Source: Candidatus Hydrogenedentota bacterium (GTDB lineage: Bacteria; Hydrogenedentota; Hydrogenedentia; Hydrogenedentales; JAEUWI01). Taken from it: 64,000 nucleotides of DNA. The position numbers were made by a program, and so were the translations under genes. Shown here in pieces: positions 2,848 through 15,379 of the stretch. The number at the start of each line of letters is the position of its first letter. The first letter of the stretch is position 1. The notes beneath the pieces are model-generated. The model had not been told where the DNA came from, made no database searches, and worked only from the letters and a program-made list of their open reading frames with translations. Location: positions 62,001-126,000 of the forward strand of contig JAEUWI010000008.1 of NCBI GenBank assembly GCA_016791475.1. The letters run 5' to 3'.

Positions 2848-2939
2848 CCTTCGTGGTACCATGGTTGCGAACCTGGAAGGAGCCACCCCATGCCACACCA
2901 CGTAGAATTCTCCGTTCCCCTGGAGAGGTTCAATCCACC

Positions 2940-4889
2940 ATGAGCATCCGTTATCGGCTCCTCCTGCTCGTCTCCGCGCTCGTGCTCATCTCGGCCACCG
3001 TGCTCGTCTACCTCGCATCGGCCTACCTGGACACGCGCCAGCGACTTCGCGAGGCCGATGTTGTCCTCGACGAGCTTGTACGGGCGGCGGGCACTTCGGC
3101 GGCAATTGCCCGACTGCGGCTCCTGGTGCTCTATCGGCAGAGCACCGGCGCCGGCGCACCCGGCGAAGTAGAGGAGCTGGCCCTGGGCTGCGAGCGTGCA
3201 TTTGATGCCTGGAGTGCCGCGTCAGACCTCGCGATTCAAGCAGGCATTGGAGACGAAGCCGACGACCTGGCACAAATTAAAGTCCTGGCACAGGATTTTC
3301 AAACGGAGCTCGAGAGGCTCCGAACGGCACTCGACGCTAAGGCTGCGCCGGATCCCGCCGTCTTCGACCAACTCCTGGATTCGGGCGTACGGGTACTCTT
3401 TGTTGACGATCTTGGCGAGATGAGCACCGCCTTTGACGGAATATTGCTCAGCATGGGCACCACCCCCTGGATCGCTCGAATCGGTCCAGGTCAGCTTGCC
3501 ACGGCCCGCGCCACCCTCGCCGAAATCCGCGCCGCGCACCTGGTGCGGGATCGCCTCCAGCGCCAAGCCAGCCGCATCGCCTTGCTCCTGGCCGACGCCT
3601 CGCCTGAAATCGACCGTGAGATAATCAGCACCACCGTTTCCCTGAATGAAACGATGGGAGCCTGGCTCAGGGCCACGGAAGCCTATGTGGAGGTCTCCGG
3701 CGAACCCGCGCCACCTCACTACGAAAAATTCGTCGTCGCCAACAGAATGCTCCAGGAGCATGTCAATCTGCTCCTGGAGGATGAGCGCCACGGACGCATC
3801 GACGATGCGCGTACACGAGCCGCCGAGACCTGGATGCCTGCGCTCCAGAATGAACTGCTGCCAATCCTCGAGGAGAGTCTGAACTCGGAAGTCGCCGAAC
3901 TGCGGAATATGCTGTTGGAACTTTCCAGTTCCACCGCGTCGGCGGGCGCGGGCGGCATAGCCGTGATTTGCGCCGTCCTGCTCGCCACCGTCGCGGGCGC
4001 GTTCCACACCGTTCGCTCCATGCTTCGTTCCCTGGACCAGCTTCGCGCGGGGACGGAACGTGTCGGCGCGGGAGATTTCGCCCACCGGCTCAACCTCGGC
4101 GCCGCCGATGAGCTGGGCGCGCTGGGCGCCAAGTTTGACGCGATGGCCGAGAAACTCCAAGAGCAGGTGCGGCAGCGCCAAGCCCTGGAGGCGGAGTTGC
4201 TCCGCAATGAGCGCCTCGCCACCCTGGGCCAGGTCATCGCCACGGTCAGCCACGAGATTCGCAATCCCCTTGGCACCATCCAAACCTCGATCTACGCCCT
4301 GCGCAAGCGACTCGGCGATCAAAGCGATGCTGTTTCCAGCTCGCTCGACCGCGCCGACCGGAGTATAGTGCGGTGTAATCGAATCATCGGCGAGTTGCTG
4401 GACTACACCCGCACCCGCGCGCCCAACCGTGTGGAAACGCCCCTCGACTCCTGGCTGGCGCAAGTGCTGGACGATTTCAATTTTCCCACGGGTGTGGCGG
4501 TATCATGTTCGCTGAGTTCGGGCGCAACCCTGCCCATCGACCGAAATCACATTCAAGGCTGCATCGTGAATTTGCTTAGCAACGCCTGCCAGTCCATGAT
4601 GGAGCGACAGGACGGGCGGACGCCGTGCATACTCCGCATCGAGTCTGAAGACACAGGCTCCCGGGTGGAAGTCCGCGTGAACGATACCGGGCCGGGAATC
4701 GCCCCGGAAATTCTCGATAAGATATTTGAGCCCATGTTCAGCACGCGCACCTTCGGCGTGGGCCTGGGTCTGCCGATTGTAAAGAAAACCATGGAACAGC
4801 ACGGCGGCAACGTCGAGATTGTAAGCGAACTGAATCGCGGAACCACGGCAACGTTGTGGTTCCCCGCATCGGTACTGGAGAAAACATGA
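2940..4889 (+). CDS. membrane sensor histidine kinase
   Basis: A transmembrane sensor kinase of about 649 residues that autophosphorylates on His and passes phosphate to the next gene's product. TM1 is at about 5-27, a long helical extracytoplasmic sensor follows, TM2 is at about 333-355, then HAMP. The HisKA motif SHEIRNPLG has its phospho-His near 438. The ATPase domain shows NLLSNACQS (N box, ~542), DTGPGI (~581) and GVGLGLPIVKK (~606). The frame is open from 2853, but the ATG at 2940 follows a GAGAGG sequence and starts directly before TM1, so it is preferred. The response regulator gene starts 1 nt after the stop. The signal sensed is unknown. Confidence 0.9.
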   Translation: MSIRYRLLLLVSALVLISATVLVYLASAYLDTRQRLREADVVLDELVRAAGTSAAIARLRLLVLYRQSTGAGAPGEVEELALGCERAFDAWSAASDLAIQAGIGDEADDLAQIKVLAQDFQTELERLRTALDAKAAPDPAVFDQLLDSGVRVLFVDDLGEMSTAFDGILLSMGTTPWIARIGPGQLATARATLAEIRAAHLVRDRLQRQASRIALLLADASPEIDREIISTTVSLNETMGAWLRATEAYVEVSGEPAPPHYEKFVVANRMLQEHVNLLLEDERHGRIDDARTRAAETWMPALQNELLPILEESLNSEVAELRNMLLELSSSTASAGAGGIAVICAVLLATVAGAFHTVRSMLRSLDQLRAGTERVGAGDFAHRLNLGAADELGALGAKFDAMAEKLQEQVRQRQALEAELLRNERLATLGQVIATVSHEIRNPLGTIQTSIYALRKRLGDQSDAVSSSLDRADRSIVRCNRIIGELLDYTRTRAPNRVETPLDSWLAQVLDDFNFPTGVAVSCSLSSGATLPIDRNHIQGCIVNLLSNACQSMMERQDGRTPCILRIESEDTGSRVEVRVNDTGPGIAPEILDKIFEPMFSTRTFGVGLGLPIVKKTMEQHGGNVEIVSELNRGTTATLWFPASVLEKT

Positions 4890-5623: not shown

Positions 5624-6796
5624 TCAATCAGCCTCATTCCGCAAGGTTTCCGTCAGCTCCGCCTCGATCTCTTCGATACTCGGCAGGCTGGAGGCCAGGT
5701 TGGCCGGAAGCGCGCGGGTGAGTTCGTAGTCCGCAACGCCAATGGGCTTGTGAATATCGCGTAGGGCATACTCCGCGACCACGCGGTCTTTGTTCTGGCA
5801 GAGAATGAGACCCACGGTAGGCGCATCGTGTTCATGACGGAGTTGGTCATCCACCGCCGAGCAGTAGAAATTCATCTTGCCTGCGTACTCCGGCTTGAAG
5901 TCGCCCTTCTTCAAATCGATAGCGACGAAGCAGCGCACATGGAGGTGGTAGAAAAGGAGGTCAAGATAGAACTCCTTCTCGCCCACGTCCAGCCGGTACT
6001 GTCGCCCGACAAAGGCAAAGCCACGCCCCAACTCCAGCAGGAACTTCTGAATATGGGTCAACAGGCCCACCTCCAGCTCCCGCTCTTGGAAGGGCTCCGC
6101 CAAGGTCAGAAAATCGAACACATAGGGGTCTTTTAAGAGCTGGGTGGCAATTTCCGCATGCGCAGCGGGCAGGGTCCGGTCAAAATTGGTCACCGCGCCG
6201 CCTTGGCGTTCGTGGGCGCAGTTTTTGATTTGGGTTGTCAGCGTGGCCCGGCTCCAGCCTTGTTCCAGGGCCTGCTGGGCGTACCACAGGCGAGTCGGGA
6301 GATCTTTTATCTTCTGAATCAATACAACATGGTGAAACCACGGCAACCCGACTGCCAGCTTCGTAGAAATGAGGGGGCTCTCCGGGAGGTGTCGTATTTT
6401 TGCAGCAGGCTGCTGCAAAATTGGCAATGAAGACTTTTGCTCACTTTTATCACTTTCATCTTCTTGAAAAGTCAATTTTGCAGCAGCCTGCTGCAAAATT
6501 GACGGTGGTCCGTATTCACGCGCAAACTGAATCATGTAGCCGAGATTGCGCTCTGAAAACCCTTTCTCCTCCGGCAATTCGTTCTTCAAATCAACGGCCA
6601 AACGTGGAATAACATTTGTACCCCACCCCTCTCGCTCTTGGCGCTCTAAGATCATTCGTCCCACATCCCAATACAGCAGAATCATCTCTGCATTTGCGGA
6701 CAGAGCCGCACGACCCTGCGCGGCGCGGACGCGGCTCTTGATGTCACCCAACAGGTCGCGATAGATTCCCAAACCGGTATCGCCATGCTCAGTCAT
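5624..6796 (-). CDS. DUF1016/YhcG family PDDEXK nuclease-like protein
   Basis: 390 residues with the YhcG N-terminal helical domain (start to ~130) and a C-terminal PD-(D/E)XK-type domain (FYLDLLFYHLHVRCFVAIDL, then KKGDFKPEYAGKMNFY). The family is often found with restriction-modification and defence genes; its role is not settled. The start overlaps the plsC stop by 8 nt, so it is read from the phospholipid operon although it looks functionally unrelated. The stretch around residues 100-135 contains two QQxAAK repeats encoded by palindromic DNA (6398-6420 and 6473-6501), which looks like an in-frame insertion. A degraded relative lies at about 62510-62815. Confidence 0.85.
   Translation of the reverse strand: MTEHGDTGLGIYRDLLGDIKSRVRAAQGRAALSANAEMILLYWDVGRMILERQEREGWGTNVIPRLAVDLKNELPEEKGFSERNLGYMIQFAREYGPPSILQQAAAKLTFQEDESDKSEQKSSLPILQQPAAKIRHLPESPLISTKLAVGLPWFHHVVLIQKIKDLPTRLWYAQQALEQGWSRATLTTQIKNCAHERQGGAVTNFDRTLPAAHAEIATQLLKDPYVFDFLTLAEPFQERELEVGLLTHIQKFLLELGRGFAFVGRQYRLDVGEKEFYLDLLFYHLHVRCFVAIDLKKGDFKPEYAGKMNFYCSAVDDQLRHEHDAPTVGLILCQNKDRVVAEYALRDIHKPIGVADYELTRALPANLASSLPSIEEIEAELTETLRNEAD
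6398..6501. repeat. two palindromic repeats inside the DUF1016 gene
   Basis: A near-perfect palindrome occurs twice in the coding region. The copy at 6473-6501 has 14-nt arms (CAATTTTGCAGCAG and its complement) around one base. The copy at 6398-6420 has 11-nt arms (TTTTGCAGCAG) around one base. Both are read as QQxAAK on the coding strand, so they preserve the frame. Confidence 0.85.
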
Positions 6797-7523: not shown

Positions 7524-8480
7524 CTATCGCACGCCGTAGAGGCCGTAGAACCAGTTCACCATGTGCAGGAAGAGGGGCGCGGTGAAGATCAGGCTGTCAA
7601 TGCGATCCAGGATCCCCCCGTGACCGGGTATGAGCGCGCCCGTGTCCTTGATGTTGATGTCGCGCTTGATGACACTGATGGAAAGATCGCCCAATTGCCC
7701 GCCGATGCCTACGATGAGTCCCGTGATGATCAGTTGCAGTGACCCAAAGTGGGGCAGGCACGGTGCGGCGATCCACGGAAAAACCATGGATACGGCGAGC
7801 GCGCCGAGAGAGCCTTCCCACGTCTTGTTCGGACTGATTTGGTCGCGCAGTTTGTGGCGACCAAAGGCCTTGCCGAAGCAGAAGGCCGCAATGTCGTTGA
7901 TCTCCACCGCCACAATGAGAAAGAGCAGATAGGCGTAGGGCCGGTCGGCATTCGCGAGGAAGGTCAAGTGACCAAACATCCACGCGATATACACGAAGCC
8001 CACCATCGCGAGCGACACCATTTGCAACTGGCCTTTGCTGCGGTTGCGCAGAATCGGGATCGTCAGTATCAGCGCGATGGCATAGACCGGCAACGTGCGG
8101 AACATGCCGAACCAGCCGGGGCGACCATTGTAGGGATCGGTAAGGATTGCGATAAAAAAAATCGCGCCGATGGACACATAGACCGAGCCCGTCATCCACC
8201 AGTCGCGGTAGAGTCCCGTGGCCCGGGCGAACTCGCGAAAGCCGATGAAGGCCACAATGGAGAAAAGTGTGATGGTGGCCTCGCGCCCGAACAAAACGGC
8301 CGCCAGCACCGTCGGGATCATGATCAGCCAGCCCTGGTAGATGCGCCACACGGACGTGACGTTCTTCCCGAGGGCGTACTTCAGCAGCAGCAAAGCCAGA
8401 CCCGCGACAATGAGCGCGCCAAAGATGAAACCGCCGAGGAAGCGAACACTCGGGTCGTGCAGCGCGGCTTGGAAATTCAT
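7524..8480 (-). CDS. cdsA: phosphatidate cytidylyltransferase (CDP-diglyceride synthase)
   Basis: Integral membrane enzyme that converts phosphatidate and CTP to CDP-diacylglycerol. The 318-residue product has about eight membrane segments and the complete CDP-diglyceride synthase signature near the C-terminus (SVIKRDINIKDTGALIPGHG, then GILDRIDS). The frame runs upstream to 8789, but the ATG at 8480 overlaps the stop of the preceding gene in an ATGA arrangement and the residues before it are non-family, so this start is chosen. It is followed by plsC. Confidence 0.92.
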   Translation of the reverse strand: MNFQAALHDPSVRFLGGFIFGALIVAGLALLLLKYALGKNVTSVWRIYQGWLIMIPTVLAAVLFGREATITLFSIVAFIGFREFARATGLYRDWWMTGSVYVSIGAIFFIAILTDPYNGRPGWFGMFRTLPVYAIALILTIPILRNRSKGQLQMVSLAMVGFVYIAWMFGHLTFLANADRPYAYLLFLIVAVEINDIAAFCFGKAFGRHKLRDQISPNKTWEGSLGALAVSMVFPWIAAPCLPHFGSLQLIITGLIVGIGGQLGDLSISVIKRDINIKDTGALIPGHGGILDRIDSLIFTAPLFLHMVNWFYGLYGVR

Positions 8481-9148
8481 GACGCCGCCTTGCGGTTGAG
8501 CGCGTCGATGATACGCCGCAGGCGAACAACAACCGTCTGCAGGCAGCCCGCAATCACGACGATCAGCGTCCAGTCCATCACGGTCAGATTCCACACCGTG
8601 GGCAGATGCCACCCGCCCCAAAGCTGGAGCAGCAGGATCGTCGCGCCAATGTGGAGCGTCACCATGCGCCACGGCTTGGCCATGATGCCGCTGAACTCCC
8701 GCTGCACACCAACGGCCTGGCCAAAAATACCGATATACGCCGTGAACACCGCCAGGATCGCCGCCCAATAGCCCAAAGGCACCAGGCACAACCCACTATG
8801 CGCCACACCCGCGAAGATCATCACATCGGACACGCGGTCCGGTACTTCATTCACGATCTCGCCGTTCAGGCTCGCCTTGCCAGAGGCCAGCGCCACCATA
8901 CCATCGAGCATGTTGAACCACAGCCGCGCATAGCAAAAAAACGAGCCCGCCATCAGCAGCCAGGGATAACTCGCCGCCTGCCAGAAACAAAGCCCCGCCA
9001 GGGCCGCCGCCACGACGGATAGATAGTTTCTGTGGCGGAAAGCTGAATTGACAAAATGATAAACGAATGGCCTACTCCCTTTGGACAAAACATCTGTGAC
9101 GGCAATCACAGAAAGGAGCAGGCCATGCGAATGAAGACTGTGCGTCAA
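8477..9148 (-). CDS. CDP-alcohol phosphatidyltransferase family protein, 5' end replaced by an insertion sequence
   Basis: The product is multi-spanning and carries a CDP-alcohol phosphotransferase-like motif (NMLDGMVALASGKASLNG, then EIVNEVPDRVSD), a variant of DX2DGX2ARX8GX3DX3D. Only 8477-9023 appears native. The first ~42 codons of the open frame lie inside the IS whose terminal repeat begins near 9024. The usual N-terminal helix ahead of the LSVVAAALAGL segment is missing, and the sequence beyond the far IS end (after 10679) does not supply it. The gene is probably inactive unless an IS-borne start restores expression. It heads the cdsA-plsC operon. Confidence 0.75.
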   Translation of the reverse strand: MTHSLHSHGLLLSVIAVTDVLSKGSRPFVYHFVNSAFRHRNYLSVVAAALAGLCFWQAASYPWLLMAGSFFCYARLWFNMLDGMVALASGKASLNGEIVNEVPDRVSDVMIFAGVAHSGLCLVPLGYWAAILAVFTAYIGIFGQAVGVQREFSGIMAKPWRMVTLHIGATILLLQLWGGWHLPTVWNLTVMDWTLIVVIAGCLQTVVVRLRRIIDALNRKAAS

Positions 9149-10679
9149 ATTTACCTGGATTTTGAGCTTCCGTCAAGCCCGACGAAAGTGGTGGCGTCGT
9201 ACCGCAAGAAGTACGGGTCCATCAATGCGCTGTTGCTGGCGAACCCGGCGGTGCTTGATTTGGTGCATTCGGATTTCTGCCGATGGCTCTCGACTTCTGA
9301 AAAGGGCCGTTGCAGCGGTTATACTTCTGAAGAGATTCTACGATGCCTGGTGGTGATGTTTGTGGAGCAGGACAGTTACCGGGACGTGGTGGTTCGGATC
9401 GAGAATAGTGATTTCCTACGCAGCTTCGTGGGGCTGGGTTTCGCGAAGCCGATGATGGATTTTTCCTTTGTGGGCAAGGCTTTTGCCGCGTTGTCAGGGG
9501 AAACCTGGCATGCGGTGAACCAGTCGTTGGCGCGGCACGCGAAGAAGAAGGCGTGGATCAGTGGCGAGAAGTTGCGCACGGACTCGACGGCGTATGAGTC
9601 CAATATTCACTACCCCACCGATTCTTCGCTCTTGTGGGACAGTTTCCGGGTTCTGTGCCGTACGCTGCGCCGCCTTCAAAAGGCGTGCCCGAAATTGGGC
9701 CTTACGCACCGCTACCACGACAAAAAGGTCAAGAAACTCGCCTTCTACATCGCCCGCAACGCCAAGAGCCGCAGCAAGGCAACGCAGCGACAGGTGAAAC
9801 GCACTTATCGACTCCTCATAGAGCGGGTGGCGTGGATTGCCGGGATCAGCAACGAAGTTCAAAAGCTATTCGCGCACGCAATCCTTGAGGTGTCGGAACT
9901 TGTCCTGTACACCCCCGTCGCCGAGCGAATCGTCGACCAGGCCCAGCGCCGCATATTCGATGGCGAGATTGTTCCTTCGAACGAGAAGGTCTACAGCCTC
10001 TTTGAGGAGCACACCGAACTCTTGAAGCGGGGCAAGGCCGGGAAGCCGGTCGAGTTTGGTCATAAGGTGTTGATCGCTCAGACGGGCGAGAAGTTCATCA
10101 CCCACTACAAAGTGATGCCGGAGCGCGAGGAGGACAAAGACCTCTTGGAGGCGACGCTCGAGGCCCATCGCTCCTTGTTCGGCAAGCTACCCGACACGCT
10201 TGCTGCCGACAAAGGATTCTATGCGAGTGTCGAACAACTGAAAGGGCTTGAGAAGAAGATCACGACCGTATCCATCTGCAAGAAGGGCCGGCGGACCAAG
10301 AAAGAGGAAGAGCGAGAGCACGGTGAAGAGTTCAAGGCAGGCCAAGCCTTCCGCGCCGGTGTCGAAGGGACGATATCCGTGTTAAAACGCGCCTTCAAGC
10401 TGAATCGATGCCTTTTTAAGGGTTATAAGAATTTTGCGTCGAGCGTGGGCTGTGCGGTGTTCTGCCACAACCTCGTTCTGCTCGCAGAGACATAGAAAAT
10501 CGGCTTCGATTTTGAATGGTTAACGCGGGGCGACGGAGGGATGCGTCCCGAGGCGTCGGAAATCGACGTTCGATGACGAAATGCAGCATTATGGACGCCA
10601 TCCAGAAGAGCTACACTGAACTAGGAATGAGAAAAACTCCGAAGGATGCGCCAGAAACGGCTATTCGACACAGAAACTA
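9024..10679 (+). mobile_element. insertion sequence with ISNCY/IS5-like transposase
   Basis: Terminal inverted repeats were found by comparing the two flanks. The left end reads TAGTTTCTGTGGCGGAAAGC from 9024 and the reverse complement of the right end reads TAGTTTCTGTGTCGAATAGC, ending at 10679 (17 of 20 match). The element is about 1.66 kb with one transposase gene and some 180 bp of non-coding right end. No clear target duplication was seen. Insertion removed the 5' end of the CDP-alcohol phosphotransferase gene. Confidence 0.8.
9125..10495 (+). CDS. DDE transposase (ISNCY/IS5-like)
   Basis: A transposase of about 456 residues. The catalytic region includes LRTDSTAYESNIHYPTDSSL, a pattern I recognise from ISNCY/IS5-like transposases, then TLAADKGFY and a C-terminal GVEGTISVLKR segment carrying the Glu. 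The ATG at 9125 follows an AAAGGAG ribosome-binding site; the frame is open from 9056 but that part is non-family. The reading frame appears intact. The family name is less certain than the DDE assignment. Confidence 0.85.
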   Translation: MRMKTVRQIYLDFELPSSPTKVVASYRKKYGSINALLLANPAVLDLVHSDFCRWLSTSEKGRCSGYTSEEILRCLVVMFVEQDSYRDVVVRIENSDFLRSFVGLGFAKPMMDFSFVGKAFAALSGETWHAVNQSLARHAKKKAWISGEKLRTDSTAYESNIHYPTDSSLLWDSFRVLCRTLRRLQKACPKLGLTHRYHDKKVKKLAFYIARNAKSRSKATQRQVKRTYRLLIERVAWIAGISNEVQKLFAHAILEVSELVLYTPVAERIVDQAQRRIFDGEIVPSNEKVYSLFEEHTELLKRGKAGKPVEFGHKVLIAQTGEKFITHYKVMPEREEDKDLLEATLEAHRSLFGKLPDTLAADKGFYASVEQLKGLEKKITTVSICKKGRRTKKEEEREHGEEFKAGQAFRAGVEGTISVLKRAFKLNRCLFKGYKNFASSVGCAVFCHNLVLLAET

Positions 10680-10788
10680 ATTCATAATTCGTAATTCATA
10701 ATTCTCAATTCCCTTGCGCCCGCCCCCCATATCCTGTACCCTTCTGTAGCAGTAATAAACCGGCAATCACCAAAGGGGAGCCCCATCC
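10680..10788. repeat. heptamer tandem repeat and leader of the methyltransferase remnant
   Basis: Directly after the IS end, about five 7-nt units of the type TAATTCA/TAATTCG run from 10679 to 10713. The rest is a leader with an AAAGGGGAG ribosome-binding site at 10773-10781 before the GTG at 10789. The preceding 180 bp (10496-10679) are the non-coding right end of the IS. Confidence 0.6.
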
Positions 10789-11058
10789 GTGCCCAGTCTA
10801 TCCTGGAACGAAATCCGCCAACGCGTCAAAGTCTCAGAATGCACCAAGAGCGTCCTCGACGCCCGCCAGCCCCACCTCGACAACGGCGCAACCCTCGCCG
10901 ACCTCTACGCCCCCCTCTACATGCCCGCACCCCTGTTAAAGATCCACCAAAACCTCGACCGCACCGTGGACCGCTGCAACAGAAAAGAGAAATTCGAGAC
11001 CGAGCGCGAGCGCGTGGAGTTTTTGTTTGGGTTATATGAGGAGATGACAAATTGCTGA
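10789..11058 (+). pseudogene. internally deleted MmeI-like DNA methyltransferase: N-terminal 13 codons joined to C-terminal tail (copy A)
   Basis: The 89-residue frame has a good ribosome-binding site and GTG start. It begins SLSWNEIRQRVK, which resembles the N-terminus of MmeI-like class I SAM-dependent DNA methyltransferases. It then jumps to the C-terminal tail of such proteins: SVLDARQPHLDNGATLADLY, LYMPAPLLK, LDRTVDRCNR, ERERVEFLFGLYEEM. The roughly 800 residues that normally lie between, with all catalytic motifs, are absent. The tail (10832-11058) recurs at 12213 and 13352. It is probably a deletion remnant; a role as a small peptide is not excluded. Confidence 0.7.
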
Positions 11059-11107
11059 GAGAACCCACGGCAAAAACTTGACCGGACCAATAGAATCGAG
11101 AAAAGGC

Positions 11108-12205
11108 ATGCAAATTTGGTTTCCAGAGCCGAACGCTCTAGACGACTCTGCATTGCGCAGAGGTGAAGATCCAGTCCAATATCTCGCTCGCTCCACAAGA
11201 CATCGAGCCCGTGAGACACGTCGTTTTCTGAATGAAAACATCTCGATGCTACCAGCCGAAGCCCAGAAGGGCACCTACGATGCGCTTTGTTCCCGATATT
11301 TCAGTGCGTTCTTTGAGTTAATCGTCGGGCGCACGTTGCAGACCGTTGGGGCAACGATTGAGGTTGAAAAACAGCTTAGCAGTGGCAGACGACCCGATTT
11401 TCACGCCCACTTCCCGGATGGCACTATAATTGTAGAGGCTGTTAGCCCAAACTTTGACGCTCCATTCGGTGAAGAGTTTAAGCTTCGAAACCCGTTGACC
11501 GACATCGTTGAGAGCTTCGTACCCGATGGCTGGAGCGTCATGATAGCTCAGCTTCCGAACGTTGGTCCGAACGATTCGAAGCGTGAATTTAGGGCGAGGG
11601 TCAAAAGGATTATGGCAACCCTTCCACCTCCCGAACCCGGGGTTGATCTGTATCTTCAAGACAAACTTCCGACCGGACTCATTCGATTTCGTTTGATCCC
11701 GCGTCCACGTAATTCACCACCAGTCTTGGCAGAAGGTTCCGCTGCCTACCTCTCTAATTTCGAAGCAATTCTTGAGCAGAAATTTCGGGAAAAGCGGAAT
11801 CAGATAAAACAGAAAATAGGCGAGTCTCTACCGGCTTTGCTCGCGGTCCAATACATATGGGATGACGCACTAGATGATTTTGATTCAGCGCTGTATGGAC
11901 GTACGACCGAATCGTTCGATTCCTCGGGTAGAATTATTTCTCATTTCAGAAATGGCGGGTTGTTCGCGGGCAACAGTGAAGTTGAGCCTACATTCGCGGG
12001 CATCCTCGCCTACCGTGTTGGCTATACCTCCGTGTACGGTCCGGTACTCTACTGCCATCCACGTTTCAATGGTCAATTTCCGGAGGCGCTAAACAGACTA
12101 GAGCGACGGCAGTGTGTTGATGGCACGGATATAGTTTCCGACTCTGCCGATGAAGAATGGGCCACGGACCTTTCAAGGTCGTTGAAATTCGTAAGAAAGG
12201 AGTGA
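11108..12205 (+). CDS. unknown protein with nuclease-like (PD-(D/E)XK-like) segment
   Basis: 365 residues, not recognised as a named family. Around residues 80-125 the segment FELIVGRTLQTVGATIEV, SSGRRPDFHAHF and GTIIVEAVSP follows the E...PD...(D/E)XK layout, but the usual Lys after the Glu is Val, so catalysis is uncertain. A region rich in charged helices (EAILEQKFREKRNQIKQK) follows near 225. The frame is open from a TTG at 11078; the ATG at 11108 with GAGAAAAGG just upstream is preferred. It sits between methyltransferase tail copies A and B, has lower GC than its neighbours, and looks acquired. A defence or restriction role is a guess from position only. Confidence 0.75.
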   Translation: MQIWFPEPNALDDSALRRGEDPVQYLARSTRHRARETRRFLNENISMLPAEAQKGTYDALCSRYFSAFFELIVGRTLQTVGATIEVEKQLSSGRRPDFHAHFPDGTIIVEAVSPNFDAPFGEEFKLRNPLTDIVESFVPDGWSVMIAQLPNVGPNDSKREFRARVKRIMATLPPPEPGVDLYLQDKLPTGLIRFRLIPRPRNSPPVLAEGSAAYLSNFEAILEQKFREKRNQIKQKIGESLPALLAVQYIWDDALDDFDSALYGRTTESFDSSGRIISHFRNGGLFAGNSEVEPTFAGILAYRVGYTSVYGPVLYCHPRFNGQFPEALNRLERRQCVDGTDIVSDSADEEWATDLSRSLKFVRKE

Positions 12206-12212
12206 AGTTGCG

Positions 12213-12435
12213 TAGAAGAATTCGCCCAGAGCGTCCTCGACGCCCGCCAGCCCCACCTGGACAACGGCGCCACCCTCCCCGATCTCTACGCCCCCCTCTA
12301 CATGCCCGCACCCCTCCTCAAAGCCCACCAGAACCTCGACCGCGCCGTAGACCGCTGCTACCGCAAAGAAAATTCGATACGGAAAGGGAACGCGTGGAGT
12401 TTTTGTTTGGGTTGTATGAGGAAATGACGAATTGA
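12213..12435 (+). pseudogene. MmeI-like methyltransferase C-terminal tail, copy B, frameshifted
   Basis: Starts with GTAGAAGAAT and reads EEFAQSVLDARQPHLDNG, then YMPAPLLKAHQNLDRAVD. Compared with copy A it lacks one base in the run after the CRYCRKE codons (near 12366), so the closing FDTERERVEFLFGLYEEM is in another frame. There is no start codon or promoter of its own; it follows the nuclease-like gene by 7 nt. Confidence 0.75.
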
Positions 12436-12483
12436 ACCAGCAATGGTAGACAAAGGCATCCAATGGGAGAAAAGGTGAACATG

Positions 12484-13215
12484 GCGAACGATAGTCAAGA
12501 ATCGATCGAGAGAAAGTGGCTGCGAACCTTTTGCTGGATAGTAGCTTTCGTGCTGATAGTCCAAGTTGGAGGGTACATTGGAATCCAGGCCTGGCAGGGT
12601 GATCAGCAGCGTGGTTCGTTCGGCGACATGTTCGGGGCAATCAATACGCTGTTCTCAGGATTGGCATTTGCGGCCCTCATTGTCACCGTCCTCATGCAGC
12701 GCGAAGAATTGAAACTTCAATTCGAGGAGCTGGAAAAGAGTCGAAAAGAATTCGAGAAAACAGCCGCGGCGCAGCAGGCGATATTGGAACTAACCAAATC
12801 AGAGAAGTGCGCACGCGAGGCACGGGAACGGCGGGCCGCGACCCTTACCTTGTATCCTTGGAAACGACACGATGGAGACCACCACATCGAAGGCATCGAA
12901 GCCTGGAGATTCTCAGCAACGAATCTCGGATCAATGGTAACTGAAGTGAAAGTATTCCTGGAGTCGGGCATAACAGTGGGAGGGCTGATAACGGATCCAT
13001 GCCCCATCCTACCTACCGAAGCGAAACTCTCTATAGCCTTTACAAAGGACAACAGCACAACGAACTGGAACGGGCCGGAGAATTGGCCGACTGCGACTTT
13101 CCGAATAGAGTACGTCGACACGACCGGGGAGAGACGGACGCAGAAGTATGAGCTACAAAGAAACTGGGAGAATCTCATCACATGTATTGACCTTGGAACA
13201 GAGCAATCGGAGTAG
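12484..13215 (+). CDS. two-TM membrane protein with coiled coil, unknown function
   Basis: About 244 residues. TM1 covers about 17-38 and TM2 lies within GDMFGAINTLFSGLAFAALI (about 53-75). A coiled-coil segment follows (QREELKLQFEELEKSRKEFE), then a soluble C-terminal domain rich in beta-strand. The TM2-coiled-coil block resembles a widespread family of membrane proteins of unknown function often found in accessory islands. The frame starts at 12463, but that upstream ATG and the one at 12481 (MANDSQ) are both possible; about seven residues are at stake. It lies between methyltransferase tail copies B and C. Confidence 0.75.
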   Translation, partial: ANDSQESIERKWLRTFCWIVAFVLIVQVGGYIGIQAWQGDQQRGSFGDMFGAINTLFSGLAFAALIVTVLMQREELKLQFEELEKSRKEFEKTAAAQQAILELTKSEKCAREARERRAATLTLYPWKRHDGDHHIEGIEAWRFSATNLGSMVTEVKVFLESGITVGGLITDPCPILPTEAKLSIAFTKDNSTTNWNGPENWPTATFRIEYVDTTGERRTQKYELQRNWENLITCIDLGTEQSE

Positions 13216-13351
13216 GGTCCGGGTTGCAGTCGTCGACGCTCCGCTCCGCAACACGCTGTCCATCCGGACTCACCAAGACTATACTTCGGGTGATCGAAGC
13301 AGAGCTTCGGAACATGCATTCCCAAGCGGAGCTTGGGAACAAGTCAGAAGT
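13216..13351. repeat. REP-like hairpins upstream of tail copy C
   Basis: No gene is seen. The stretch holds a small hairpin (GAAGC AGA GCTTC, about 13295-13309) and a repeat, GCATTCCCAAGCGGAGCTTG then GGAAC at 13316-13340, that folds on CCCAAGC/GCTTGGG. A second copy of the latter, interrupted by CTTAACGACG, lies at 13625-13662 beyond tail copy C. Confidence 0.6.
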
Positions 13352-13688
13352 AGAAGAATACGCCCAGAGCGTCCTCGACGCCCGCCAGCCCCACCTCGAC
13401 AACGGCGCCACCCTCGCCGACCTCTACGCCCGGCTCTACATGCCCGCTCCCCTGTTAAAGGCCCACCAGTACCTCGACCGCGCCGTAGACCGCTGCTATC
13501 GGAGGGTGAAATTCCAGACTAAGCGCGAGCGCTTGGAGCTTTTGTTTGGACTGCATGAGGGCTTGACAGGAGGAAATGAGACGCGCCCTCAACCTGAAAT
13601 CTTCGGGGCGGAGCGCCGAGGACCGCATTCCCAAGCGGAGCTTAACGACGCTTGGGAACGGGAAATAATCGTATGGCACGGATATTGA
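13352..13688 (+). pseudogene. MmeI-like methyltransferase C-terminal tail, copy C
   Basis: Begins GTAGAAGAAT like copy B and reads EEYAQSVLDARQPHLDNG, LYMPAPLLKAHQYLDRAVDR and ERLELLFGLHEGLTG (to about 13567). It then reads through a REP-like repeat to a stop at 13686-13688. The frame is intact but has no convincing start of its own. Together with copies A and B it brackets two unrelated genes. Confidence 0.7.
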
Positions 13689-14167: not shown

Positions 14168-15193
14168 CTAGTTACTGATAGAGTACGCCTCCGAGCCCAT
14201 CCTGTCAATATAGGCATATGGAATCGTTCCATAGCCGGGCGTTGGAACGCCGCCATTGGACGCGTTAATGCCCCAGTTTGTTCCCCAGCTGTTGCGGATG
14301 ATAAATCGCCCTCCCCCAAGTCCTGGATTTGGCAAGTCTATATAACCGACCATACACATGGCGTGACCTCCCGAACGTACTTCGCCCGGAACTGGCATTG
14401 TAATATCTCCGCTGTAGGCCACCCACTGGCTTCTCAGCCACGAATTGAACACCGGGACGGAGAAAGCTACACAGCGCCCGTTGGCCAGTTCATTCTTAAT
14501 ATCAGAGACAGAAGTTGGCGCGATACGCTTGTAGGTCGGCGCACGATAGGTAAGGGCTTCAAGCTGGGCTCCTCCTGGTGGAGGACCTTGCCCTTCATTG
14601 CCTGGAATGGGCGTGGGATTATAGGGCCACGTAGATTCCAAGCAAGCTCCCTCTAGCTGAAGCAGTGGAAGAGCAACGGCCAGCCAAGTTCCCTCAGTGT
14701 TGGGAATTCCATCATTACGCTTACAATTCCAATACAGGAACTGTTCCGAAAGTTCATGAAAAGCGCCCTCAACCGTCAGAAAATGTTCATGAGCGGCAAG
14801 TGCCGCATGTGCGACACACGTGCCACGTGACTCTTGGTTGCGTACCGGAGGCAATTGCGGTATCAAGTTCACACTGCTCACTGGTGTAGCGAGCGGTAGT
14901 ATGACACTGGGAGCGGTACTGGGTAACGGCACGTGGTCGATGGCAACTCCCAACGAATATGTCGCGTGACTGATCGAGTTCAGTGCGGATTGGGGAATAG
15001 CATTCGCAGATCCCATGATCGTATTCGCCGTGTTGACCAATGTGCTTACCGATACTCCCAAGTATTTAGCCAACTCTGGCCCGGCAACTTGAGCTGCCCC
15101 GATAAACTGTTCCAAACTGGTTTCCCCACTGAAACCCAAAGCCTCCAAGGCTTCTTTGAAGTCACTGAGGTCTTTGACGTCACTTACTTTCAT
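14168..15193 (-). CDS. papain-like (C1 family) cysteine protease with N-terminal helical domain
   Basis: 341 residues without a signal peptide. The papain triad and oxyanion Gln are all visible: Gln120 and Cys126 (PPVRNQESRGTCVAHA), His in GGHAMCMVGY and Asn in IIRNSWGTNWG. Residues 1-90 form a separate helical domain (FKEALEALGFSGETSLEQFI, then LAKYLGVSVSTLV) resembling helix-hairpin-helix repeats. The frame is open to a GTG at 15262, but the ATG at 15193 has GGAG 8 nt upstream and the GTG has none. The small helical gene follows. The protease is probably active; its substrate is unknown. Confidence 0.85.
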   Translation of the reverse strand: MKVSDVKDLSDFKEALEALGFSGETSLEQFIGAAQVAGPELAKYLGVSVSTLVNTANTIMGSANAIPQSALNSISHATYSLGVAIDHVPLPSTAPSVILPLATPVSSVNLIPQLPPVRNQESRGTCVAHAALAAHEHFLTVEGAFHELSEQFLYWNCKRNDGIPNTEGTWLAVALPLLQLEGACLESTWPYNPTPIPGNEGQGPPPGGAQLEALTYRAPTYKRIAPTSVSDIKNELANGRCVAFSVPVFNSWLRSQWVAYSGDITMPVPGEVRSGGHAMCMVGYIDLPNPGLGGGRFIIRNSWGTNWGINASNGGVPTPGYGTIPYAYIDRMGSEAYSISN

Positions 15194-15379
15194 TACAAAG
15201 CTCCAATCGTTGAGAGTCGCTAAGGGGGTTTCAGGCAACTCGGTTCTATTCGAGAATTTCACTGCCGACTAGCTTATGTCATCCAGAACATGGTGTACCG
15301 GCACCTCCCTGCGTTGAGTCGTTCTTTGCTTTTCGCCACATTGCTCCGACTCTGCTAAGACTCCGAAAGTGAGAATTTC

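Follow-up and report, generated by a model that had tools for sequence, protein, structure and literature searches.

Tails of MmeI-type methyltransferase genes as candidate scars of gene displacement in a Hydrogenedentota genome and in three other phyla

Defence genes turn over fast in bacteria, yet the replacement of one defence system by another at a locus is rarely visible. The draft genome of a Candidatus Hydrogenedentota bacterium (7.7 Mb, 529 contigs, ~96% complete) raises the question of what such a replacement might leave behind. In one 64,000-nucleotide stretch, referred to here as the window, the 3′ end of a DNA methyltransferase (MTase) gene occurs three times in direct orientation, with two unrelated genes set between the copies. 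The initial annotation of the window, made from the letters alone, had suggested repeated insertion into, or recombination at, the 3′ end of the MTase gene, each event leaving a new tail, and had pictured the tail as a conserved loading site for accessory genes. Here, we describe the array and its relatives, and weigh the histories that could have produced it.

A repeat search of the window places the tails in one direct family at 10829, 12210 and 13348, spaced by 1381 and 1138 bp (Table 1). Their blastn identities over 211-219 bp are 86.8% (A/B), 85.0% (A/C) and 85.3% (B/C), and three copies of ~222 bp at 85-87% identity exclude chance; the ~215-bp tail first noticed is thus real and slightly longer. 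The unit encodes MmeI_C (PF20467, curated cut-off 27 bits), the C-terminal domain of the type IIL MmeI-family restriction-modification (RM) enzymes, in line with the MmeI-like tail originally recognized: Pfam matches it in copy A (E 4.5e-22, 78.5 bits) and copy C (E 9.8e-24, 83.8 bits), and a genome search finds it in copy B at 65.9 bits with the stop read through. Tails B and C start at the identical base relative to the gene (12212 and 13350), at codon 848 of 923, adjoining the boundary between the Pfam domains TRD (ending at 838) and MmeI_C (starting at 841), and homology within the array stops at the stop codon of the tail. The two intervening units are therefore flanked by long direct repeats (222 bp, at 10829, 12212 and 13350), and the window holds only stubs of a type IIL MmeI enzyme, whose functional form is recognized by MmeI_N, hel, Mtase and TRD.

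Table 1. Features of the array in the window, and loci in other phyla where MmeI remnants adjoin other genes
Feature	Position	Strand	Description
IS element	9024..10679	+	ISNCY-type transposase 9056-10495 (NCBIfam transpos_ISNCY_1, E 3.5e-110)
5′ stub of MmeI-type gene	10758..10828	+	start (GTG, 10789) with upstream sequence including the ribosome-binding site, and the first ~12-13 codons
Copy A	10789..11058	+	89-aa in-frame mini-gene, 5′ stub plus tail (tail 10829-11055); from ORF, MmeI_C match and alignment
ORF1	11078..12205	+	375 aa, alternative ATG 11108; nuclease-like, PDF-x(n)-IIVE motif
Copy B	12212..12437	+	isolated MmeI_C tail, 1-nt frameshift; starts 6 bp past ORF1 stop
ORF2	12463..13215	+	250 aa; ATG 12481, preceded by GAGAAAAGG, is the likely start; coiled coil and two TM helices
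Palindrome TTCCCAAGCGGAGCTTGGGAA	13319..13339	+	perfect, 21 bp, REP-like; just before copy C
Copy C	13350..13575	+	isolated MmeI_C tail, open, residues relaxed
L117			5′ stub (102 codons), PrrC-like ATPase (PADLOC PDC-S06, E 6e-254), tail
L222			5′ stub (82 codons), MTase (527 aa) and REase-like gene on other strand, tail
L223			5′ stub (28 codons), XhoI REase (E 1.8e-84) and N6/N4 MTase, tail soon past MTase stop
L219			5′ stub (35 codons), 227-aa PD-ExK-like gene, tail
L232			SacI REase (E 1.3e-59) and cytosine MTase (E 8.8e-65), tail; no 5′ stub detected
L218			HNH, tail; no 5′ stub detected
L225			type IIG enzyme and Schlafen AlbA_2, tail; no 5′ stub detected
L243			full MmeI gene, then GmrSD gene, then second tail fragment

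What the complete gene looked like can be read from a congener (G001), which carries a 923-codon MmeI-type gene (L027:8656-11427, minus strand). Its product contains the complete set of five MmeI Pfam domains (MmeI_N, hel, Mtase, TRD and C), and PADLOC scores it as type IIG at 1185 bits. The 5′ end of this gene aligns with window positions 10758-10828, comprising 31 bp before the start of copy A and ~13 codons, at 84.5% nucleotide identity over 71 bp, which substantiates the view that copy A keeps the ribosome-binding site, start and first codons of the MTase. Homology picks up again at the tail; the joint is in frame and falls on a short shared stretch (CAACGCG in the tail of the congener's isolated copy). 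A search of all 529 contigs of the source genome found no further MmeI_C copy and no MmeI_hel domain, so the enzyme body, already suspected to be missing, has been lost rather than relocated, barring a place in the ~4% absent from the assembly. The full MTase sought among relatives at this locus does exist in the congener, only at another place: the left flank of the array is found there (C27), with the array absent.

The search for MmeI_C covered 100 relatives, 67 of them of the same order or closer. Isolated tails in two congeners (G001 and G002) and in a member of another family (G039) start within ~15 bp of the common start point of B and C, and two further tail fragments in G002 start later. 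The same congener carries an imperfect ~255-bp element of MITE/REP type with ends GGGACTGACRCGG...CGCGTCAGTCCC (L029:1922-2174 and 2900-3153; L030:1291-1535), which accompanies its isolated tails, sits after the MTase tail and provides its stop codon, and also flanks a REP-associated tyrosine transposase gene (L029:2167-2907).

The genes between the tails were initially described as nuclease-like (A to B) and as a two-TM/coiled-coil gene (B to C). The second description fits ORF2 as it stands; for ORF1, the gene and its motif are present and the nuclease role is a putative one. ORF1 has no match in Pfam, NCBIfam or PADLOC and no relative on viral contigs, and an AlphaFold model built without an alignment is uninformative (pLDDT 36). 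Its one plasmid homologue, from Pseudanabaena (37% identity), keeps the PDF...(I)IE motif and lacks the usual lysine; judged from this motif, ORF1 may be a PD-(D/E)XK-like nuclease. Part of the N-terminal half of ORF2 resembles an annotated 'putative phage abortive infection protein' by tblastn and partially matches PHROG 8999 (E 1.6e-7), a likeness confined to that stretch, with no described Abi family matching over the whole length. Neither gene matches an RM family in Pfam, NCBIfam or PADLOC, and 147 genomes yielded no full-length relative of either, the only hits being weak partial matches to the N-terminal half of ORF2. Both are probably anti-phage genes.

Around the array, the ORFs include no recombinase or integrase, and neither a structured RNA site (Rfam) nor an attC-like structure was found. 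The IS element upstream is bounded by 20-nt terminal inverted repeats (9024-9043/10660-10679) and starts within the 5′ end of a phosphatidyltransferase-like ORF (8477-9148), to which the congener's counterpart aligns from residue 41 only. A degenerate copy of the palindrome lies past copy C, near 13624-13658. A YhcG/DUF1016 PD-(D/E)XK nuclease gene (5624-6796) is located 4 kb upstream of the array, and a papain-family cysteine protease gene (14168-15262) directly past it.

Whether the tail is maintained for a function can be judged from the way it changes. Private changes (nonsynonymous/synonymous) number 8/3 in copy A, 10/5 in copy C and 10/9 in the isolated tail of the congener G001, against 0/2 in the intact gene of that congener. 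Disabling changes occur as well, as the frameshift of copy B and a frameshift or stop in the G001 isolated tail. By these patterns the tails now look like neutral relics and not a conserved functional unit, and a conserved functional peptide was rejected on the same grounds. A single tail unit travelling across the genus was likewise rejected, since in a tree the tails group with the MTases of their own lineage, and simple tandem duplication of a window segment is disfavoured by the 13-15% divergence and the different gene in each interval. The functional loading site of the original proposal is thus not supported, nor is a dedicated, site-specific one at the tail, also given that the 5′ breakpoints of tails elsewhere vary over ~60 codons and that no recombinase or structured site adjoins the array. 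The other half of the proposal, repeated gain of unrelated, probably defence genes with a tail left each time, is supported, and the association recurs in three phyla.

These phyla were covered by searching 392 Planctomycetota, 388 Verrucomicrobiota and 395 Bacteroidota genomes for MmeI_C; only short remnants away from contig edges were read, in draft or metagenome assemblies, and the stubs were classed by hand. In many cases an isolated MmeI tail follows a foreign restriction or defence gene at a distance of 0-65 bp, these upstream genes including XhoI-like and SacI-like RM systems, HNH and a PrrC-like ATPase, and at four loci an MmeI 5′ stub remains on the far side of the foreign gene (Table 1). 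At one of these loci (L222), the two stubs match an intact MmeI gene found elsewhere in that genome at 88% and 95% DNA identity. Other genes do therefore lie beside the same tail elsewhere, undoubted RM and defence genes among them, and they differ from locus to locus instead of being always the same two. One locus (L243) has exactly the arrangement first pictured, a full MmeI gene and a second tail with a GmrSD gene between them.

Emptied genes like copy A recur too. At L228:5568-5780, 12-13 N-terminal codons are joined in frame to a tail at STLADLY; at L231 (oriented 3442-3711), 35 N-terminal codons, 17 internal codons and a tail follow one another in frame; and in L227 the joint is out of frame. 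Where a gene is emptied in frame, translation may continue into the gene downstream, as these few cases suggest. Isolated 5′ stubs with no visible foreign gene also occur, so part of the picture is plain decay. An excess of tails over 5′ stubs was considered and is not clear, isolated 5′ ends occurring in Verrucomicrobiota as well. In a Saprospiraceae genome, one ORF (L102:5404-6267) begins with a stretch like a signal peptide, continues with a staphylococcal nuclease domain and runs on, in the same frame, into an MmeI_C tail. Matches on plasmids included no MmeI stub, E. coli genomes gave no match, and viral contigs held a single MmeI relative; close strain pairs with and without a displacement were not found among the plasmid matches and E. 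coli genomes.

The neighbours of intact genes provide the control. The gene next upstream belongs to an RM or defence family for 6-7 of the 14 stubs, and has an RM match for none of the 33 intact MmeI genes, where it is a housekeeping gene in nearly all named cases. These sets are small, and Fisher's test on them gives p = 3e-4 to 5e-5, or p = 0.013 when marginal control cross-hits are counted as three. General clustering of defence genes as the sole reason for the persistence of the tail was rejected, because none of those 33 upstream neighbours has an RM match.

We therefore favour, with moderate confidence, the reading that the tails are scars left where unrelated defence genes, restriction genes among them, took the place of MmeI-type genes. 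MmeI-type genes would be recurrently displaced in place, losing nearly the whole reading frame, and each displacement would leave a short 3′ stub and often a short 5′ stub too. The window would record at least two successive displacements, in which tails C and B are the ends of displaced MmeI-type alleles and ORF2 and ORF1 occupy the places gained. Copy A would be what is left of the last MmeI-type gene after a later internal deletion had joined codon ~12 in frame to codon ~845. Because one MmeI enzyme combines cutting and methylating activity, its loss in one step should not kill the cell, and such genes may on this account be safe to displace. What we infer in this reading is the order of events, the molecular mechanism and the defence role of ORF1 and ORF2. 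It is a counter-point that ORF1 and ORF2 match no established defence family, and the window itself is hence no proof of defence cargo; moreover, random displacement does not account for the exact breakpoint shared by B and C.

Insertion with long target duplication would fit that shared breakpoint. An accessory gene would have entered an intact MTase at codon ~848 and duplicated a ~222-bp target, so that the gene stayed whole on the upstream side and an additional tail arose downstream, twice at the same site, and the enzyme body would have been deleted later. RM systems have been reported to insert with long, variable duplications of the order of 100 bp (PMC3874152; PMC3031569), and the order A, ORF1, B, ORF2, C, the identical left ends of B and C and the arrangement at L243 all fit. 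Two successive duplications should, however, leave a younger pair of copies, and A, B and C all differ by 13-15%; the two tails at L243 are just 82% identical, most other loci have no intact upstream copy, and L223 has lost the 3′ end of the gene. We consider this course of events unlikely.

ORF1 and ORF2 could also be partners of the lost MTases and not invaders, given their operon-like spacing (each begins 20-50 bp after a tail, ORF1 after A and ORF2 after B) and the same-strand gene within 100 bp downstream of 16 of 41 intact MmeI genes. Three tandem MmeI-type genes, two with a downstream partner, would then have decayed by independent deletions that spared the 3′ ends. MmeI genes do often head operons, and on Aeromonas, Providencia and Vibrio plasmids (L273, L274 and L275) a conserved operon opens with an MmeI-type MTase gene and also contains genes for a helicase and a GIY-YIG nuclease. 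Tandem MmeI genes exist as well, one full and one N-truncated (L246:2341-7411) or two very similar full copies (L252, 1915-7673). Such decay is nevertheless slightly more doubtful again: the 6 bp between the end of ORF1 and tail B could not accommodate a promoter or 5′ stub of a second MTase, B and C have a common breakpoint, and in the other phyla an independent RM system lies upstream of the stub, with an MmeI 5′ stub beyond it in four cases.

A further alternative gives the gene ends an active part, as cis attachment sites or homology arms between which flanked cassettes are exchanged in the manner of integron cassettes. The stubs are recurrently short (12-102 codons at the 5′ end, about 35-100 at the 3′ end), and breakpoints lie far nearer the gene ends than expected of random breaks in a ~925-codon gene: by approximate hand counts, about 19 remnants are no longer than ~100 codons and 12-20 are longer (p < 1e-11). 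The six Hydrogenedentota tails beginning no more than about 15 bp apart would suit it too. Against it, breakpoints outside this order spread over ~60 codons, the array has no integrase or structured site, and the tails cluster by lineage, which makes it very improbable here. The general form of the idea, that across phyla recombination at the MmeI 5′ and 3′ ends lets defence cassettes which carry or acquire such ends take over from resident MmeI genes, is improbable to us; if true, it would be a homology-based cassette exchange for restriction systems, with neither integrons nor prophages. An assembly artefact, in which contigs of this 529-contig draft were mis-joined at a shared repeat, has a negligible chance, the 13-15% divergence being too high for a mis-join and the pattern recurring in independent genomes, large contigs included.

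If the tails are scars of displaced genes, MmeI stubs around unrelated restriction systems form a readable record of swaps that can be searched for by profile in any genome collection. They would allow displacement events to be counted and single-protein RM genes to be tested as preferred, non-lethal targets, and they can point to undescribed defence genes such as ORF1.

Several known systems resemble the array in part. The tail is the MmeI_C domain of the MmeI-family type IIL enzymes, of which the congener has a complete five-domain member; the window differs in keeping this domain three times with about 12 N-terminal codons and no catalytic part. Prophage e14 integrates at the 3′ end of icd, and there too the displaced end of a coding gene remains beyond the insertion, on its downstream side, but the window has no integrase or prophage genes and its inserted units are ~1 kb with one gene each. 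Integron gene cassettes are arrays of single genes in one orientation with repeated elements between them, a layout shared by the window, where the repeats are instead a coding domain, with no integrase seen at the array and no attC-like structure. RM systems that insert with long target duplication (Nobusato et al. 2000; Furuta et al. 2010; see the review PMC3874152) are a further parallel, since there too long direct repeats of part of a host gene enclose RM or defence genes; here, the repeats are 13-18% diverged, one target has been used twice and is itself an RM gene, and elsewhere the body of the target has been lost.
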